NCBI GenBank assembly: GCA_900552125.1
Contig: URYK01000019.1
Location: forward strand, 1-52,054
Source: an uncultured Solobacterium sp.
GTDB taxonomy: Bacteria > Bacillota_I > Bacilli_A > Erysipelotrichales > Erysipelotrichaceae
DNA: 52,054 bases
Reading direction: 5' to 3'
Below the pieces are notes generated by a model. That model searched no databases. It saw only the letters and a list, made by a program, of their open reading frames with translations, and was not told where the DNA came from. A program made the position numbers and the translations under genes. Position 1 is the first letter of the stretch; every line of letters begins with the position of its first letter. Positions 2,224-10,028 of this stretch are shown piece by piece.

Positions 2224-3108
2224 TTACTCTTCTTCCAATCCGCCTAATAATTCCAATAAGCGGTTTAAATCATCGTTTCCTTCATAACGAATGGTTATTT
2301 GTTTATCATCAATTTTAACTTTAGTCTGGAAACGGCTTTGTAGGCGTTCCTGAACTTTTTCTAAATGAATATCTTTTTCTTTCTTAACTGGCTCTGGCTT
2401 TGGTTCATTCATATTCTTTACCAAAGTTTCTACAGCTCGTACACTTAAGTGTAATTGAATAGCTTTTTTCGCAACATCTTCGATTAAAGAAGAGTCTTTT
2501 AATCCTAATAATGCACGAACATGTCCCATGCTTAATTGTTTGTCAATTACATATTGCTGAACAGATTTTGGCAGTTTAAGTAAACGTAGCATATTTGCTA
2601 CATGCTCTCTTGATTTACCAATTCTTTTCGCAAGTTCTTCTTGTGTATAGCCAAGCTTTTTAATTAGTTTCTCATAGCCTTGAGCTTCTTCTATCGCATT
2701 TAAGTCTTCTCTTTGGATATTTTCCAACAGAGCAATTTCCATCATCTGCTGATCATCAAAATCCATCAAAATAGCTGGAATTGTTTTTAGACCTGCTAAT
2801 TTACTTGCGCGCAAACGACGTTCCCCAGCAATCAGTTCATAACCCTTTACGGCTTTTTTTACTAGGATAGGAGTAAATACTCCATGTAATTTAATAGAAT
2901 CTGCTAATTCCTGAATTTTACTATCATCAAAGTTTTTACGTGGCTGATAAGGATTTGGTTTTACTTCACTTACCTCTACTTCAAACTTAGAATCCTCATG
3001 TATCTCTGCTTTCCCATGTTGAATGTCTTCTAGAACATCACTAACATCTTCACCAAAGATTGCGGATAAACCTTTTCCAAGTCTGGCACTATTATCTTTT
3101 TTTGGCAT
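2224..3108 (-). CDS. parB: chromosome partitioning protein ParB (Spo0J)
   Basis: ParB loads at parS sites, spreads as a CTP-dependent clamp, and works with ParA in origin segregation and SMC loading. The 294-residue protein starts with the short basic segment that activates ParA (MPKKDNSARLGKGLSAIF). It carries the CTP-binding LIAGERRLRA box, the ENIQRED motif and a helix-turn-helix (TQEELAKRIGKSREHVANML), then a linker and a C-terminal dimerisation domain. Start at 3108 with GGAGG upstream. It is the last gene of the operon, 11 bp after parA. The parallel noc gene upstream is a paralogue. I saw no canonical parS in the window. Confidence 0.95.
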   Translation of the reverse strand: MPKKDNSARLGKGLSAIFGEDVSDVLEDIQHGKAEIHEDSKFEVEVSEVKPNPYQPRKNFDDSKIQELADSIKLHGVFTPILVKKAVKGYELIAGERRLRASKLAGLKTIPAILMDFDDQQMMEIALLENIQREDLNAIEEAQGYEKLIKKLGYTQEELAKRIGKSREHVANMLRLLKLPKSVQQYVIDKQLSMGHVRALLGLKDSSLIEDVAKKAIQLHLSVRAVETLVKNMNEPKPEPVKKEKDIHLEKVQERLQSRFQTKVKIDDKQITIRYEGNDDLNRLLELLGGLEEE

Positions 3109-3119
3109 TCTTTACCTCC

Positions 3120-3902
3120 TTATCTAGCTTTTGCTTTCTTATTCATTTTTACGACTTCATTAGATAATCCTGCATAAGCTTTTGCCCCTTCACATCTTAC
3201 ATCATATTCAAAAATTGACATACCTCTTGATGGAGCTTCACTTAGCTTAACATTTCTAGGAATATAATTTTTATATACTCGATCTTTGAAATGCTGACGC
3301 ACTTCCTGCTGTACTTCTACACTTAGTTTTGTACGAGCATCATACATTGTTAGTACTACGCCCTCAATCATCAGATTACGATTAAACAACTGCTGAACAA
3401 GACGTATTGTTAATAATAGCTGTGTAACACCTTCTAATGCATAATATTCGCATTGAACTGGTATAATTACAGAATCTGCAGCTGTAAGAGCATTTGTATT
3501 TAATAAACCTAAAGAAGGTGGACAATCAATAATAATGAAATCATATTCATCTTTAATTGGATCCAATTTCTTTTTTAATAATTCTTCTTTTCCAACTTCA
3601 AATTTAACCATTTGCAGATCTGCACCTGCTAAAGCAATGCTTGCAGGAATAATATCAATTGGTGGAGAAGTTAATTTTTTTCGTATATCCTGAACACTAT
3701 AATCTTCCATGATTAGATTATAAATAGATAGTTTATCTTCTCCAACTTCTGCACCTACTCCTTGTGTAGCATTCCCCTGCGGGTCGAAATCTACCAATAA
3801 TACTTTATTTCCTAGGTATCCAAGCCCTGCCGCAAGATTAATAGACGTCGTTGTTTTTCCAACTCCGCCTTTCTGATTGGATACCGCTATGATTTTACCC
3901 AT
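3120..3902 (-). CDS. parA: chromosome partitioning ATPase ParA (Soj)
   Basis: This 260-residue ATPase has the deviant Walker A motif KGGVGKTTT at the N-terminus, the switch region VDFDPQGNAT and the Walker B-like IIIDCPPSLG. ATP-bound ParA binds nucleoid DNA non-specifically; ParB stimulates hydrolysis, and in Bacillus Soj also regulates DnaA. Length matches chromosomal Soj. The ATG at 3902 follows an AAAGGAT ribosome site. It sits between noc and parB, as in Bacillus subtilis. Assignment is secure. Confidence 0.95.
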   Translation of the reverse strand: MGKIIAVSNQKGGVGKTTTSINLAAGLGYLGNKVLLVDFDPQGNATQGVGAEVGEDKLSIYNLIMEDYSVQDIRKKLTSPPIDIIPASIALAGADLQMVKFEVGKEELLKKKLDPIKDEYDFIIIDCPPSLGLLNTNALTAADSVIIPVQCEYYALEGVTQLLLTIRLVQQLFNRNLMIEGVVLTMYDARTKLSVEVQQEVRQHFKDRVYKNYIPRNVKLSEAPSRGMSIFEYDVRCEGAKAYAGLSNEVVKMNKKAKAR

Positions 3903-3916
3903 ATGATCTATCCTTT

Positions 3917-4681
3917 CTATTTTGGAATGCGAATAGTAATAACTACTTCATCCTCAAATTCCTGTTCACTGACATTTGCCTCTGTACCAGCACGATTTAC
4001 CATACTGACAGCTTGATGTATCGTATTAATTGCAATTTTAATATTCTTACTAATACCCTTTAAGAACACTTTTTTCTTTTCTTTTTTAGGCATTGCCTGT
4101 TGTTTTAACATTTTCTCAGTTTGTGCTACAGTTAATCCTTTTTTCACTATTGTATGTAATGCATCCTGCTGTTTTTTCCCATCTAAACCAATTAATGCTC
4201 TCGCATGACGCTCTGTAATTTTTTTAGTACTAACTGCTTCCTGCACATCTTTATCTAGATTTAATAGACGTATTTTATTAGCAATCGAAGATTGGCTTTT
4301 CCCAACTCGCAAAGCCAATTGACTCTGATTTAAGCCTGAATATTTCATGATTTCAACATAAGATTTCGCTTCTTCAATCGCACTTAAATTTTCTCGCTGA
4401 ATATTTTCTACCAATGCCATTTCTGCCATTTGCAATTCATCAGCATCCATGACCATGACAGGAACATCAACTGCCCCATTTAATTTTAAAGCACGAAATC
4501 TACGTTCTCCTGCGATAATCTGATATTTCCCATCAAGTTCTCGAACAGTAATTGGCTGAATCAAACCATTTTCACGGATGGATTGAGCTAAATCCATCAA
4601 TGCATCATCATCAAATTCTAAACGAGGCTGATATGGATTCGGTTCTACCAAATCTATATCAACAATTTTGGTTTCTCTCAT
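3917..4681 (-). CDS. noc: nucleoid occlusion protein Noc
   Basis: Noc is a ParB paralogue that binds its own sites, uses CTP, attaches DNA to the membrane and blocks FtsZ assembly over the nucleoid. The 254-residue product has the IIAGERRFRAL CTP box, VENIQREN, a helix-turn-helix (NQSQLALRVGKSQSSIANKI) and the family's typical end (IAINTIHQAVSMV, ending TIRIPK). It sits between rsmG and parA, the Noc position in Bacillus. It begins almost directly at the ParB fold (MRETKIVDIDLVEPNPYQPR), so it lacks the N-terminal amphipathic membrane helix of Bacillus Noc. The start is fixed by AAGGAGG upstream of 4681. The name rests on synteny and the C-terminus. Confidence 0.85.
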   Translation of the reverse strand: MRETKIVDIDLVEPNPYQPRLEFDDDALMDLAQSIRENGLIQPITVRELDGKYQIIAGERRFRALKLNGAVDVPVMVMDADELQMAEMALVENIQRENLSAIEEAKSYVEIMKYSGLNQSQLALRVGKSQSSIANKIRLLNLDKDVQEAVSTKKITERHARALIGLDGKKQQDALHTIVKKGLTVAQTEKMLKQQAMPKKEKKKVFLKGISKNIKIAINTIHQAVSMVNRAGTEANVSEQEFEDEVVITIRIPK

Positions 4682-4692
4682 AATATTCCTCC

Positions 4693-5403
4693 TTAAAGGG
4701 GATGTTTCTTCATCTGTGCAAATTGTCGTGGATATTTTTTAGGAGTTAATTTAGTTTTTTCATATACATAATTAATACGCTGAGATCCATCTGACAGTTT
4801 ATGCACATCTCTTTGTTTCATTTCACACCCTAAGATACGAATTGCATTCTTTGCTAATTCATGTTCTTCATCTCCATTAGCACCTTTCAATGCTAGAAAA
4901 TAGCCATGAAGCTTCACAAGCGGTATACACAATTCACTTAATAGCGGTAAATTTGCAACTGCTCTAGCACTAACAATATCAAAGCTTTCTCTATGATCTT
5001 TCGCATAATCTTCCGCTCGAGCATGAACGCATGTCACATTATCCAATTGTAATTTCTCACATAAAGCATTTAAAAAAGTTACTCTTTTTCCTAAAGTTTC
5101 CACAATTGTAAGCTCTAATTCAGGATATACTATTTTTAAAGGTATTCCTGGAAATCCTGCGCCAGCACCCACATCACAGAAACTTCCCTGTATCTTCATG
5201 TCAAAAGAAGGTAATATTGAGTCCAGAAAGTGCTTTTCATAAATTTCATCAATATCAGTTATTGCTGTTAGATTCATCTTCTGATTCCACTCTATCAGCA
5301 TATTGGCATAATCTTCAAATTGTTTAATTTGATGTTCTTGTAAATGAATTCCGTGTTCATTTAATATCTTTACAAAGTCTTCTTTATGAAATATTTTGGA
5401 CAT
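4693..5403 (-). CDS. rsmG: 16S rRNA (guanine527-N7)-methyltransferase
   Basis: RsmG (GidB) methylates G527 of 16S rRNA using SAM; its loss gives low-level streptomycin resistance. The 236-residue protein shows the SAM-binding loop DVGAGAGFPGIPLKI, the acidic end of beta-2 (TIVETLGKRVTFLNAL) and VSARAVANLPLL. It is first in the rsmG-noc-parA-parB operon, 11 bp before noc. In many bacteria mnmG lies directly upstream, but here a divergent MATE gene does. The ATG at 5403 has GGAGGG upstream. Confidence 0.95.
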   Translation of the reverse strand: MSKIFHKEDFVKILNEHGIHLQEHQIKQFEDYANMLIEWNQKMNLTAITDIDEIYEKHFLDSILPSFDMKIQGSFCDVGAGAGFPGIPLKIVYPELELTIVETLGKRVTFLNALCEKLQLDNVTCVHARAEDYAKDHRESFDIVSARAVANLPLLSELCIPLVKLHGYFLALKGANGDEEHELAKNAIRILGCEMKQRDVHKLSDGSQRINYVYEKTKLTPKKYPRQFAQMKKHPL

Positions 5404-5456: not shown

Positions 5457-5626
5457 TTACTTTATGATTTTTATAATACAAACCAACAATTCAATCATCT
5501 GACTTATATGATTATTATTTAAATCAACTTTTAATGCTTATATATTTATTCTTTTATTTTTTAAATATACTTAGCTTTTTTTAATCATTTCATGTAAAAT
5601 TAGCTAGGATGAAATGAGGGATATAT

Positions 5627-6976
5627 TTGAAAAAGGATTTAGGAAAAGATTCCATATTAAAGCTTGTGTTCTCTTTGGCTATTCCTGCCATGATTGCACA
5701 GCTTGTCAATGTTTTATACAGTATTGTTGACCGTATGTTTGTAGGACAAATTCCTGAGATAGGAAATCAGGCATTAGCTGCAGTAGGAGTTTGTGGTCCT
5801 ATTGTTACACTGTTATCTTCCTTTGGTACCCTAATAGGGATTGGTGGTTCTATTCTTATGTCAATTAAGATGGGGCAAAAGAAAATGGAAGATGCTAAAC
5901 AGATTTTATATACCAGCTTTATTATGCTGATATGTGTTTCTATTGTACTTACCGTGTTATTTCTATTCTTAAGAAGGCCTATGATTTATTGGTTTGGAGG
6001 AAGTGATGCATTATATCAATATGCAAATACTTATTTAACAATCTATACTGCGGGAACTTTCTTCGCCCTAATGGCAATTGGAATGAATTATTTTATTACT
6101 TGCCAAGGATTTGCATCTATGGCAATGTTTAGCGTTATTATTGGAGCTATCACAAATATTATATTAGATGCATTATTTATCAGAGTATTTCATATGCAGA
6201 TTGCAGGTGCCGCAATCGCAACTGTCATTGCTCAGATTATGTCTTCCCTATTTGTAGTTGGTTTTTTAATTAGTAAACATTCACAGGTGCGATTAAAGAA
6301 AAATACTTTTCAGATTCACTTTGCGAAAACAATATTAAAGTTAGGTTTTTCTCCATTTATCATCATTGCCAGTGATTCCATTATCATTATATTAATGAAT
6401 ACGATTCTACAAAAAGTTGGCGGTTCCGGTTATGGAGATGTACTAATTTCTGCCGCAACGATTGCCCAAAGCTGTTTCTTATTGATAACCGGTCCTTTAC
6501 TTGGAATAACCAGCGGAACACAAACAATTATCAGTTATAACTTTGGCGCAAAGAATCGTAAACGTATAGAAAAAGCATTTAAAACAATTATCACTATGGC
6601 TCTTTGCTTTTGTACCTTTATGTTTATCACTATTATGATCTTCTCTGATTCATTTGTTTCTATGTTTACAAATGATGCGACAACAACTCCTATCGCAATC
6701 CGAGCTATTCGTATCTTTATTTTAGGTATAATTCCAATGGCAATACAATATGCCTTAGTTGATGGTATTACTGCACTATCCAATGTTAAAATTTCTCTTG
6801 CCCTATCTATGACAAGAAAAACTATTTATATTGTATCACTGCTTATACTTCCAATGATTTTTATGGCTGAAAGCATCTTTTTCGCACAGCCGATTGCAGA
6901 TGTTCTTGCGACTATGATCACATCTTTTGTATTTATCAAAACATTCCCTAGTTTCATGAGAAACAATGGCATGTAG
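5627..6976 (+). CDS. MATE family efflux transporter
   Basis: This 449-residue integral membrane protein has about 12 hydrophobic segments in two pseudo-symmetric halves, and the MATE start LAIPAMIAQLVNVLYSIVDRMFVGQ. MATE proteins export cationic drugs or metabolites using Na+ or H+ gradients; the substrate cannot be read from sequence. The start is TTG at 5627, six bases after GAGGG. A -10-like TAAAAT lies at 5595-5600. It is divergent from rsmG and ends in a strong terminator shared with the opposing RNA locus. A second MATE gene nearby (8578-9918) is broken. Confidence 0.9.
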   Translation: MKKDLGKDSILKLVFSLAIPAMIAQLVNVLYSIVDRMFVGQIPEIGNQALAAVGVCGPIVTLLSSFGTLIGIGGSILMSIKMGQKKMEDAKQILYTSFIMLICVSIVLTVLFLFLRRPMIYWFGGSDALYQYANTYLTIYTAGTFFALMAIGMNYFITCQGFASMAMFSVIIGAITNIILDALFIRVFHMQIAGAAIATVIAQIMSSLFVVGFLISKHSQVRLKKNTFQIHFAKTILKLGFSPFIIIASDSIIIILMNTILQKVGGSGYGDVLISAATIAQSCFLLITGPLLGITSGTQTIISYNFGAKNRKRIEKAFKTIITMALCFCTFMFITIMIFSDSFVSMFTNDATTTPIAIRAIRIFILGIIPMAIQYALVDGITALSNVKISLALSMTRKTIYIVSLLILPMIFMAESIFFAQPIADVLATMITSFVFIKTFPSFMRNNGM

Positions 6977-6989
6977 TATACTTTACATA

Positions 6990-7703
6990 ACGAAACAAAC
7001 CTCCAGCTATTACTCTTATTAACTGGAGGTTTTTATATATTCAATTGTATTTTATCACGTCCATTTCTTATCTATGTTGATGTCTTTGTATAAGATATAT
7101 TAGTCAAATTACAATACATTACTGATAAACTTTGAACGTTGCATTTTGAATACTATATGGACTCTGTTTATGTCTATTTCTTTCTTACCTATGTATGCGT
7201 AGGTTGTCAAATGCTTATCCCTACTATTTAATTGTCGCAACAGATTTCCTATTATCATAGCTTAATTTTTATAAGTGCTTCATACTTACATTCTTATTAA
7301 GCTCTGATATCACTTATGACATCTTCCCATATTTATCTTCATTAAGATAAATTATTGCTTTTACATATCACTATGTTCCAGCCGTTCATAAGCTTTTTAT
7401 ATAGCTTCTCATGCTTTTTGGAGTTTCTAGTTTTACCTAGTAGATATAATCACTTATATCTTTTCCTAATACCTTGATCCCTGTCACCAATCTTCTTTAG
7501 GCTTAAACTTCCGATGATCCACACCGTATTTTCCGAATTATGTTAGTTATTAATGGTATCTCTCTAACTTTTCTCCTACTGATAAGTTCCTCTACAAGAA
7601 ACCCTTTCACGCACCAGTATTATGAACAAGTTCCATTAATCTAACTAGCTAACGTTCCCATCTTCTCACCGCTCTCTTTTTTATTGCTATTTCTTTTTAC
7701 ACC
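6990..7703 (-). ncRNA. large structured non-coding RNA candidate (~0.65-0.7 kb)
   Basis: There is no ORF, yet on the minus strand the block folds densely. Nine or more helices are visible. A long-range closing helix pairs GAACGTT-A-GC (7657-7648) with GCAACGTTC (7142-7134). A 13-bp helix pairs GTTAG/ATTAATGG (7645-7633) with CCATTAAT-AA-CTAAC (7556-7542) and encloses GTTTCT/AGGAAC (7602-7586). The central hairpins are AGATATAA-GTGA-TTATATCT (7461-7442), AAGCT/AGCTT with CAT/ATG (7413-7387), ACATA-GTGA-TATGT (7376-7363), ATTTATCTT-AATG-AAGATAAAT (7352-7331), GATGTCA/TGATATC (7323-7306) and AGCTTAAT/ATTAAGCT (7303-7259) with an inner TGTAAGT/ACTTATA. GNRA (GTGA) loops recur. A near-consensus promoter precedes it and a terminator follows. 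Size and style recall the ornate large RNAs (ROOL, GOLLD, OLE), but family membership is not established. No protein gene is associated. Confidence 0.7.
6999..7034 (+). terminator. terminator of the MATE gene, possibly bidirectional
   Basis: ACCTCCAG (6999-7006) pairs with CTGGAGGT (7023-7030), then five Ts. Read from the other side the stem is followed by TTTGTTTCGTT, so it could also end the minus-strand RNA arriving from 7703. Confidence 0.8.
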
Positions 7704-7706
7704 TTT

Positions 7707-7734
7707 ATTATAACTAGTCTATCCTATATGTAAA
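7707..7734 (-). promoter_or_regulatory. promoter of the large structured RNA
   Basis: On the minus strand TTTACA (7734-7729), a 16-bp spacer and TATAAT (7712-7707) predict a start near 7700-7703. The promoter points into DNA with no reading frame. An 18-bp perfect dyad, ATATTATTGGAATAATAT (7734-7751), abuts the -35 and may be an operator. Confidence 0.7.
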
Positions 7735-7772
7735 TATTATTGGAATAATATGCAATAAACTGGAATTTTTTG

Positions 7773-8459
7773 TTATTTCTTTTCTATATAGCTGTGGAAA
7801 GTATCTATCATTTTAGCTTTCTTTGCCCTAGAAACAGGTAAGGATATCTTAGGTAAAATAACGGTATCATTTTCAATCTTTAAAATATACTCCATATTCA
7901 CAAGATAGCTAGCATGAATCCACAGAAAATCATAAGGTTCAAAAAAGGCAAAAGCATCTTTCATATTTTTTCTTTCTCTGAATTCTCCACGTTTTGTATG
8001 ATATACTAACATCTTATCTTCTTTCTCTATATAGTAAATATCACTGATTTTTAGTGGTACTTTAACATTATTATAGGAAAATAGATATTCATCCTGATGA
8101 TGAATCAGTTTCTTTAGATAAGGCAATATTTTTAACATTTCCTGGGAAATCTCTTTACGTTGGATATAAAATATTCTTGCGAATGGCAGTATTTCTTTCT
8201 CCGTTTCTGTCAATTTTGATTTTATATAAATCACGATTCTTTGTGGTTTATTTAACACAAATGTCTGAGTGACTCTTGGTACTTCCATTTTCTCATGGAA
8301 AAAGACAACTTGAAAATCCTTTTCTGCTTCTACTTTTGCGAATTGTGATATTTTCTGAAAACAATAACAGCTACAATCCTCCTGTTGAAATTGCTTCGCA
8401 AATACATATAGAATCTGTTTGGCAATTTCCTCTGTTTCTAGTATCGCGATCCGTAACAT
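7773..8459 (-). CDS. LytTR-family transcriptional regulator with a degenerate receiver
   Basis: This 228-residue protein ends in a LytTR DNA-binding domain (about residues 125-225: ISDIYYIEKEDKML, then the WIHASYLVNM and LPVSRAKK motifs). The first ~110 residues look like a receiver fold without its acids: the start reads ILETEE, and the phosphoacceptor position lies in VVFFHEKM with no aspartate. It probably responds to something other than phosphorylation, which is inference. The start at 8459 has GAGGTGATG upstream. No histidine kinase is adjacent. It ends only 33 bp before the -35 of the structured RNA on the same strand, so it may regulate or read into that locus. Confidence 0.75.
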   Translation of the reverse strand: MLRIAILETEEIAKQILYVFAKQFQQEDCSCYCFQKISQFAKVEAEKDFQVVFFHEKMEVPRVTQTFVLNKPQRIVIYIKSKLTETEKEILPFARIFYIQRKEISQEMLKILPYLKKLIHHQDEYLFSYNNVKVPLKISDIYYIEKEDKMLVYHTKRGEFRERKNMKDAFAFFEPYDFLWIHASYLVNMEYILKIENDTVILPKISLPVSRAKKAKMIDTFHSYIEKK

Positions 8460-8546
8460 GATTCATCACCTCTTTTTCTACAATAATATGCTTTTCACTT
8501 ATATTATAACGCTAGTATTTCTTTGCGTATAGTTTATATTCTTAAT

Positions 8547-8570
8547 AAAAAATGACTGCATAATGCAGTC
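8547..8570 (-). terminator. terminator of the MATE pseudogene
   Basis: A near-perfect palindrome, GACTGCAT/ATGCAGTC (8554-8570), is followed on the minus strand by ATTTTTT just after the pseudogene stop at 8578. Confidence 0.7.
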
Positions 8571-8577
8571 TAAATCG

Positions 8578-9918
8578 TTACATAGTTGCTTGCTTTTTAC
8601 GAAACATAAATTCTTTAGTAAATTTAGCCATCATATAAATAGCATATACCGCAACGATTAATTCTGTTAGAGGCATTGCGAACCATAATGCATCTGCACT
8701 AAATACAATTGGTAAGATGTAGATAATCCGCTTATTATTAAACCACGTGCTACAGAAACAATAAATGCTACATTAGGTTTCATAATAGCTTGGAAATAAT
8801 AAGTAGAAAAGATATTGATTGGCAACAATAAGAATGATAAACCATAAGTAGAAATAATAGATGGAGCTATTTCTAATACTTCTTTTGTTGGTGTCATAAA
8901 AATATGAATGAATTGATTTGGTATCGTTAAACAAAGAACTGTCCATAATATTGCAAAGAATCCTGCTGTATATAAGGCGTATTTTAAGGTTTCCTTTACT
9001 CTGTCCCATTTTCCAGCACCATAGTTTGTTGAGAATATAGGCTGTGATGCTTGTCCAACACTATATGCACAACATTGAACAAATGTACTGACATTAACAA
9101 TAACCCCGTAAATAGATAAGGCATTTGTTCCTAAATATGTCATAATCTGTCGATTGAATAATATAGTCAATATTCCATCGCAATATCAATAAAGAAAGTT
9201 GAAAATCCTGTTATGCATATCTTTTTAAATTGTTGTAAAGGCTGTGAAGGTTTTACAAGACGTAATGTATTTTTCTTTGTTAAGAAATGACTACACATTA
9301 CTAAGATAGAGATAATAGAACCTATGGCAGTAGCTAATCCTGCTCCCATAGCACCCATATTACATGTAAAGACAAAGAAATAATCTCCAAAAACATTGAA
9401 AACTCCTCCTGCTAAAACAGCTGCTGTTGCTAAAGCAGGATTTTTATCATTTCTTAAATAAGCGTCCATAGCCTGTGTAAATAAGAAACATGGTATTACA
9501 AATTTAATTGGATATACATATTCACGTGCTAATGTTAATGTTGATTCATCAGCACCAAATAACATCAATAATTCTTTATCAAAGAAAATAATAACGAACC
9601 AGGCAATTAAAGAAAATACAATAGCTCCTAATATGGAAACTGTAAAGTATTCATTTGAACTATCCTCTTTATCTTTGGACTGCCCTCGAATCGTACTAAA
9701 AATAACGGATCCACCAATTCCCATAAGAAGTCCTAAACTATAAATAATATTCCAGATAGGGGCTACAACAGCTAGAGCCGCGGTTCCTGCTGGACCGTGA
9801 TACTGTCCTACCATTGCCATGTCCACAATCGAATAAATGGAAGTAATCAAGGCACTTCCAAATGCAGCTAATAAATATTTAAAGTATAGTGTTTTTATTT
9901 TTCCTGTTAAAAATCCAT
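8578..9918 (-). pseudogene. MATE family efflux transporter, broken by three frameshifts
   Basis: Conceptual translation gives a complete MATE protein (SALITSIYSIVDMAMVGQ, then KPNVAFIVSVARG, ending in KKQATM), but three indels break it. The proper start (ATG at 9918, AAGGAG 7 bp upstream) runs into TAA after three codons and needs one more T in the run near 9909 to read on. A missing G near 9170 breaks the frame after FIDIAM, where the family continues GILTILFNRQIM. A third shift near 8727 diverts the last ~60 residues. Neighbouring genes are intact, so general sequencing error is unlikely, although two of the three are homopolymer events. The upstream leader and promoter remain intact. Confidence 0.85.
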
Positions 9919-9931
9919 TTCTTTTCTCCTT

Positions 9932-10028
9932 CCAAAACAAAAAAATGCCGGATAAGATTTCAGGCATCTCAGCCCGTGCTCTTATCCAGCTCATCATTTC
10001 TAATGAATGACTTACCCTCCGTGCAAGT
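9932..10028 (-). promoter_or_regulatory. structured 5' leader / candidate attenuator of the MATE pseudogene
   Basis: From the predicted start near 10028 the RNA contains GGAGGG, a small hairpin TCATT/AATGA, then GGATAAGA (9983-9976) pairing with TCTTATCC. A competing stem ATGCC/GGCAT is followed at once by seven Ts, like an attenuator. The leader also keeps an open frame (MMSWIRARAEMPEIL and on) that runs into the MATE frame. This could be a leader peptide or a ligand-binding RNA. I recognise no known riboswitch class. Confidence 0.45.

Follow-up and report, generated by a model that had tools for sequence, protein, structure and literature searches.

Genomic context of the RNA locus

The DNA analysed here (the window, 52,054 nucleotides of contig URYK01000019.1 from an uncultured Solobacterium sp.) contains an interval limited on one side by a convergent MATE gene (5627-6976, plus strand) and on the other by a gene coding for a LytTR regulator (Table 1). 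An earlier note on this DNA had claimed for the interval a large, promoter-driven, terminator-ended structured RNA and no ORF. The ORF list holds nothing longer than 49 aa there, and the 49-aa and 40-aa ORFs gave best E-values of only 2.5 and 0.48 in tblastn against the relatives described below. The absence of ordinary genes was thus correctly noted, but a conserved ORF of 3–6 codons with a ribosome site (six codons in the window, 7661-7641) was overlooked, as were the paired upstream boxes and the link to the LytTR gene. Homologues and covariation lend strong support to the claim of a structured RNA, and we conclude that the minus strand from about 7700 to 6993 encodes a real structured RNA, for which a transcript is predicted.

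Close to the RNA, the region 2224-5403 (minus strand) contains genes identified by eye as parB, soj/parA, noc, and rsmG-like, which suggests an origin-proximal position and a high gene dosage of the RNA. Upstream of the LytTR gene, a second MATE-family gene (8667-9997, minus strand) reads as two ORFs that overlap in different frames (9167-9997 and 8667-9170), a break probably due to a frameshift.

Table 1. Features of the RNA locus and its regulator gene (window coordinates).
Feature	Position	Strand	Remarks
LytTR-family regulator, 228 aa	7773-8459	minus	Pseudo-receiver about residues 1-121, LytTR DNA-binding domain 134-217
Two LytTR-box-like direct repeats	about 7773-7761 and 7753-7741	minus	20-bp period in the window, just upstream of the -35
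Promoter TTTACA-16 nt-TATAAT	7734-7707	minus	11/12 consensus positions; start expected near 7700
Predicted RNA	6993-7700	minus	~0.7 kb; both ends estimated, the 5' from the -10 box and the 3' from the terminator
Nearly invariant block GAGAGCGGTGAGAAGATG	7659-7676	minus	Read as ribosome-binding site (GGTGA) plus ATG
Mini-ORF ATG GGA ACG TTA GCT AGT TAG (MGTLAS*)	7641-7661	minus	Conserved stop position
P1	7645-7633 with 7556-7542	minus	Right arm bulged; read by hand; left arm holds the mini-ORF stop codon
P2 hairpin CGGUG-UGGAU-CAUCG	7512-7526	minus	Paired in all, invariant in 5 type-1 copies
P3 (CCUAA...UUAGG)	7465-7501 (7501-7497 with 7469-7465)	minus	Compensatory changes
P4 hairpin GAUAUA-AGUGAU-UAUAUC	7443-7460	minus	4/6 pairs changed on both sides, 5 sequences
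P5 hairpin CUAG-GUAAAA-CUAG, then AAACUCC	7427-7440	minus	Uncounted
3' box ACAAUUGAAUA	7038-7048	minus	Directly before the terminator
Intrinsic terminator (stem + T-rich tail)	about 7031-6991	minus	From fold and by eye

The near-consensus promoter had already been pointed out in the earlier note, and it is indeed the best of the 21 promoter-like sites found in 5500-9500, a number that represents no excess over the 22.5 expected from shuffles. Type-1 relatives show a TATAATRAARGTGTAAA-like start at the promoter. The terminator that had been proposed at the other end was also recognized, its stem being usable, together with a plus-strand T-run, to end the convergent MATE gene as well (fold and eye). 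It was missed by the promoter/terminator scan and by our home-made finder (it asks for a stem at or below -9 kcal/mol with a T-run behind it), which made calls at 321–875 nt in 16 of 29 sequences and none in five, window included, other terminators being assigned by eye. A AAUUGAAUA-like box often precedes the terminator in the relatives; its strict AATTGAATA or CAAYTGAA form appears in 15 of 26 loci, and variants were seen by eye in several others. This 3' box mostly lies just before the terminator, with one case inside the terminator stem (L051) and another well upstream of the called terminator (L053). Predicted RNA lengths range from ~350 to 900 nt across the relatives, the 3' domain being variable.

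The minus strand folds at -151.8 kcal/mol compared to -117.6 for 20 dinucleotide shuffles (z -7.07, none of the 20 as good), while the plus strand gives a weaker signal (z -3.59, again 0/20 as good). Full-length folds of 11 RNAs, with ten shuffles each, had z values of -3.3 to -6.1 for the RNA strand and -2.0 to -6.3 for the other, and in L050 and L061 the reverse strand beats the RNA strand. Since reverse strands also fold better than shuffles, the RNA strand was set by the promoter, the block, and the terminator, and not by energy.

Relatives and distribution

A search of the genome contigs with the LytTR protein confirmed no relative, and the lineage was therefore traced via rsmG, located 2 kb from the RNA, whose product is 74–75% identical to those of Longicatena and Amedibacillus. 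BLASTN of 272 Erysipelotrichaceae genomes gave matches in 21 (best E 1e-55, covering query positions 29-322 of 751), 17 of which carry the conserved block; the other four (G069, G122, G195, and G198) were set aside. With a pattern of the 5' block allowing one mismatch we found 52 places in 44 of the 272 genomes, against 13 places for the reversed control pattern. The surroundings of 36 of these places were read and comprised 29 RNAs and seven chance matches; the remaining 16, all with one mismatch, lay outside the reading. The 29 RNA places correspond to 25 genomes, three of them with a second copy and one with its locus split over two contigs. A covariance model (R1) made from the type-2 copies added one more genome (G109). 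In total, RNA copies are confirmed in 26 of the 272 Erysipelotrichaceae genomes, and the named carriers include Longicatena caecimuris and Amedibacillus dolichus.

Outside this set, an order-wide search of 315 genomes with R1 gave 20 genomes matching at E 0.01 or better. Fifteen were strong (best E 4e-14 or lower) and all belong to Erysipelotrichaceae, while the five weak ones (L127-L131, E 9e-4 to 0.0095) proved on reading not to be the RNA and look like ordinary gene starts or chance. A class-wide search of 395 genomes produced a single match, to a member of Erysipelotrichaceae. Because type-1 copies get weak scores with R1, distant relatives of the type-1 kind could have escaped this search. 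The plasmids searched had no match to the RNA, and the viral contigs no match of the block pattern in either type. Five Enterococcus phage records matched 7736-7674 (minus strand) with ~78% identity over 62–63 nt (E 1e-3 to 5e-3); this is the AT-rich promoter/leader part, and the matches probably reflect composition. Three related genomes (L055, L059, and L064) have a second, shorter RNA copy 1.44–1.47 kb after the first, with box-like repeats upstream, and these second copies are tandem paralogues. No description of the RNA was found in open-licence papers, an earlier report elsewhere being possible.

Conserved hairpins and covariation

The earlier note had proposed collecting homologues by BLASTN and checking them for covariation, and the relatives found here show compensatory changes in P1–P4. 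P1 corresponds to the second long-range helix of 13 bp that it had described, and is kept by compensation. An automatic helix search located P1 by the stop codon in 21 of 25 loci, its right arm lying 10–15 nt ahead of P2; it did not do so in the window, L050, L060, and L062, and P1 was read by hand in the first three of these. RNAalifold run on a MAFFT alignment of 11 type-1 5' domains misaligned P1 and found no covariation, and because of this failure P1 was aligned by hand. In the hand alignment of 25 loci, which excludes L062 because its helix is interrupted, 147 of 150 cells are paired, and each of the six positions shows two to four pair types. The shuffle control reached a mean of 114 and a maximum of 128 of 150, but it is not an independent control, as the arms were picked for complementarity.

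P2, constant in type 1, varies with compensation in type 2. P3 has double changes in both types, one pair (GC to AU) in type 1 and all five in type 2. P4, the hairpin with a GTGA loop that had been noticed from the sequence, is likewise maintained by compensation, and P5 equivalents of other sequence were seen by eye in L049-L052. For P2–P3 in 14 type-2 copies, 97.9% of the cells are paired, 26 cells have double changes, and the covariation score is 0.565, with 0/500 shuffles attaining any of these values; of the coarser measures, the number of double-change pairs (six) was reached by 43 of 500 shuffles and that of pair types by 242. For P2–P4 in five type-1 copies, pairing is 100%, with 11 double-change cells and a score of 0.400, again each 0/500, the two coarser measures being reached by 20 and 59 of 500 shuffles. 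Slid structures were only 26–53% paired, in type 1 and type 2 alike.

The long-range closing helix (7657-7648 with 7142-7134) that had been suggested did not survive this comparison. The 7-nt complement is present, yet 48 of 300 shuffles equal it, and it is not conserved: seven of nine relatives do no better than shuffles, and the two that exceed them, L050 (14/300) and L058 (2/300), have the match placed elsewhere, in L058 after the presumed terminator.

A conserved mini-ORF at the 5' end

The most conserved part of the RNA lies near its 5' end, where GAGAGCGGTGRGAANATG is nearly invariant across the relatives. It is read as a ribosome site and the start of an ORF of 3–6 codons, whose translation is predicted. 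In the window the block is found at a single place, with an exact match, 0.46 places being expected with up to three mismatches. The stop falls at codon 7 in 12 of 12 type-1 copies (nine TAG, two TGA, and one TAA), whereas in the other two frames the first stops scatter at 4–22 and 4–13. In the 14 type-2 copies the stop is at codon 4–6, while one of the other frames always stops at 1, through a TGA that overlaps the ATG, and the remaining one at 7–90. The three second copies have an ORF of 12 codons, MTIESRCVKN[HN]R. Peptides vary among the relatives (MGTLAS, MGSFRG, MTI, MTIQ, or MTRDL), differing in codons 3–6 and in length. These rows are not independent events, as L056/L057, L058/L060, L061/L063, and L101/L102 are closely related. 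Two gene starts of the same lineage (L127 and L128, genes identified by eye) bear GAGGTGAGAAGATGACAAG and also received weak R1 scores, and this favours the interpretation of the block as a ribosome site.

Upstream boxes and the LytTR regulator

When 28 promoters were aligned on the first base of the -10, two 13-bp elements became evident at -62/-50 and -41/-29, with a 21-bp period and the consensus [AG]CC[AG]AWTWT[GT]CCA, the last A being weak in the first element. These 28 come from a total of 33, after dropping three near-duplicates and two with an uncertain -10. Column autocorrelation was 0.112 at 21 bp, followed by 0.055 at 20 bp, the shuffle maximum at 21 bp being 0.009. A strict expression of the box found a pair at 20–22 bp in only six of the 33 promoters (shuffle maximum 0). 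In a leave-one-locus-out profile over 53 loci, taking the best four places per strand and locus and the best 50 overall, 29 of 31 RNA promoters are in the top 35, with L059 and L098 outside the best 50; near-duplicates stayed in the training, and some of these scores are flattered. Two promoters outside the training set, those of L178 and L179, scored 26.3 and 34.1 bits, and four unrelated places 16.0–22.3. The boxes of the window itself are weak, with 15.5 bits, the lowest among the 29 RNA promoters in that top 50. The direct-repeat pair of ~21 bp just upstream of the -35 is therefore a property of the set of 28 that is only weakly visible in the window. VirR boxes, as described in PMC2838878, are direct repeats immediately upstream of the -35, and the VirR motif CCAnTT-N15-CCAGTT-N3-Cac, given in PMC4963840, has the same period as the boxes found here. 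By their layout, we infer that the paired boxes are LytTR-type and putative regulator sites.

A LytTR-domain regulator is linked to the RNA. Its LytTR domain was recognized by Pfam (PF04397, E 4.8e-14), but no receiver match appeared at E 0.1 in any of the five regulator proteins tested. In the AF2 model (pLDDT 86.6), the N-terminal domain is predicted to adopt the (beta-alpha)5 receiver fold. The best structural match of the model is full-length ComE (4cbv, E 4e-11, TM 0.41), a TM value at which the domains fit one by one and not as a whole, and the next ones are LytTR domains including AgrA. The position of the receiver Asp, residue 55 at the end of beta-3, is occupied in 45 relatives by H (29), N (9), Q (6), and D (1). 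The regulator lacks the phospho-acceptor Asp of phosphorylated response regulators, and this suggests control by something other than a kinase.

An orthologue of this gene is found upstream of the RNA, on the same strand, in 17/17 homologous loci, in eight of nine further RNA loci, and in L180; the ninth (L100) and L099 are two halves of one locus that a contig end interrupts. None of the seven chance block matches has it. In most loci the LytTR gene is directly upstream, and in seven (L049, L052, L053, L056, L057, L058, and L060) 0.5–1.5 kb or a gene lies between. The orthologue gives one match per genome, in 48 of 272 genomes at E<1e-20 and 43 at E<1e-60, and all 26 RNA-bearing genomes are among these 43. 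The 17 others have no block. Three of them present divergent RNA candidates, with mini-ORFs recognized by eye (MVPP in L165, MGT in L178, and AQSDDY with a GTG start in L179). The remaining 14 had no block match in the pattern search and no such RNA in the 420 nt after the gene (only 124 nt in L171, and partly masked in L167), so the regulator must presumably have other duties. Downstream of LytTR, L167 and L173 have TATACTGAAGGTG promoter-like starts and short hairpin regions with no conserved block, which are possibly further diverged RNAs. In L169 and L172, a HAD hydrolase gene directly follows LytTR, resembling by eye the one that follows the RNA in L065 and L100. From the linkage and the boxes, the regulator is a probable activator of the RNA.

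Comparison with known RNA families

In Rfam 15 at curated scores, no match was found in the window among 4227 families, and an E-value search of 6950-7800 gave just three hits, all with E above 2. In the 17 homologous loci there was none at the RNA, the loci giving only two FMN riboswitches and six tRNAs. The earlier note had compared the RNA to ROOL, GOLLD, and OLE by style and recommended checking these together with raiA and HEARO; the five covariance models gave no match in the window at curated score, and membership in ROOL, GOLLD, or OLE is not supported. Nor was RNAIII (RF00503) matched in sequence or structure in the window or at the RNA in the 17 homologous loci. ROOL and GOLLD are phage or prophage RNAs often near tRNAs, according to PMC12286853, a setting not seen here, where the window contains no tRNA.

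A proposed regulatory RNA controlled by an orphan LytTR protein

The reading that we favour, and hold to be fairly probable, is that of a standalone structured regulatory RNA, a main output of the neighbouring orphan LytTR pseudo-response regulator, acting in trans. The regulator, with its ComE/AgrA fold and a receiver without phosphorylated Asp, would bind the boxes upstream of the -35 and recruit RNA polymerase. The resulting ~0.7-kb RNA would form a chain of conserved hairpins and end at its own terminator. A ribosome would load on the GGUGA at the 5' end and translate 3–6 codons up to the foot of P1, which may protect the 5' end or couple P1 folding and RNA activity to translation. Like RNAIII and VR-RNA, the RNA would then target either other transcripts or a partner protein. 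Action in trans is probable because the RNA has its own terminator and the downstream genes vary, including by eye a convergent MATE gene, rsmG, HAD hydrolase, sigma factor-like, and asparaginase-like genes, among others.

A tentative extension, possible although on balance unlikely, is that the RNA is ribosome-gated. Because the ORF ends at or just before the first strand of P1, a ribosome that reaches the stop codon would occlude this left arm and might hold P1 open, and in this way translation could gate the fold. If true, the fold, and with it the activity or stability of the RNA, would report the translation or charging state, while an orphan LytTR pseudo-receiver would determine its amount, and a gut lineage would possess an equivalent of RNAIII that senses translation. 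We know of no counterpart to such an RNA.

We find it unlikely that the molecule is a scaffold or particle RNA like OLE, ROOL, or GOLLD, with the LytTR gene merely setting its expression. Its size, hairpin density, and phylogenetically kept local structure would suit such a role, but there is no Rfam match, a rigid particle would sit poorly with a variable 3' domain and predicted lengths between ~350 and ~900 nt, the proposed closing helix is not conserved, and plasmids and viral contigs gave no match, those in phage records being weak and restricted to the AT-rich promoter/leader part. More improbable is a tiny-peptide gene, in which the product would be the 3–6 aa peptide and the rest a structured untranslated region. 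In its favour, nothing in the locus is better conserved than the ribosome site, ATG, and stop; however, codons 3–6 and peptide length vary while distant hairpins covary, and several hundred structured bases would be needless for a peptide alone. A marginally lower probability still is given to the possibility that the RNA acts in cis, as a leader or attenuator for the gene that follows. Attenuators do have the layout of a short ORF abutting a hairpin, and the RNA precedes same-direction genes in the L061/L063/L065/L100 group. In most loci, though, it is terminated before the next gene, which differs from locus to locus and has a convergent orientation in the window, L050, L052, and L064. In the L061/L063/L065/L100 group a HAD-hydrolase gene is found downstream of the RNA, with an additional gene before it in L061 and L063, and next comes a gene that by eye resembles the diadenylate cyclase gene cdaA.

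Two further candidates were refuted and retain a negligible probability. The 15 GGA motifs of the window RNA (7–18 per RNA in the 11 counted, window included) could make it a CsrA sponge, but PF02599 is absent from 26/26 carriers, the control being detected in E. coli, B. subtilis, and T. maritima, and frequent GGA is expected in RNAs with so many purines (63% in the window, 60–68% in the relatives); another GGA-binding protein is possible. A decayed protein gene or chance intergenic sequence would be compatible with an AT-rich region with no ORF. The compensatory base pairs, the nearly invariant 5' block, and the linkage to LytTR exclude it, and with it the decayed coding frame that the earlier note had raised against its own proposal.

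To our knowledge, bacteria have few large RNAs whose structure is kept, and the control and function of most of these are poorly understood. Here both are directly testable, as the regulator, boxes, promoter, mini-ORF, and terminator can all be read and named carriers exist.

Among known systems, ROOL, GOLLD, and OLE share with this RNA that they are large, unusually structured, and non-coding, but the window RNA has no Rfam match, is LytTR-linked and chromosomal, was found in one bacterial family only, and varies in length. The VirR-VR-RNA system of Clostridium perfringens has a LytTR regulator, paired boxes of the CCAnTT-N15-CCAGTT type upstream of the -35, and a regulatory RNA. VR-RNA is a 386-nt regulatory RNA whose protein-coding region is not the active part, as stated in PMC4963840. 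VirR, however, is paired with the kinase VirS in a two-component system whose components lie dispersed over the genome, whereas here an orphan regulator with a degenerate receiver is linked to the RNA, which carries a conserved ORF of 3–6 codons. In AgrA-RNAIII of Staphylococcus aureus, a LytTR regulator also adjoins a structured RNA with a short ORF, and AgrA structures match the LytTR fold. RNAIII has ~0.5 kb and carries the delta-haemolysin ORF of 26 codons. In our case no agrBDC, kinase, or peptide gene was seen adjacent by eye, the RNA lies downstream of the regulator on the same strand, there is no Rfam match, and the mini-ORF has just 3–6 codons. On our best reading, the RNA would work most like VirR-VR-RNA and AgrA-RNAIII, being unrelated to them by Rfam. 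It would carry their LytTR-to-RNA logic into Erysipelotrichaceae and add to it a conserved ORF of minimal size that might sense translation.
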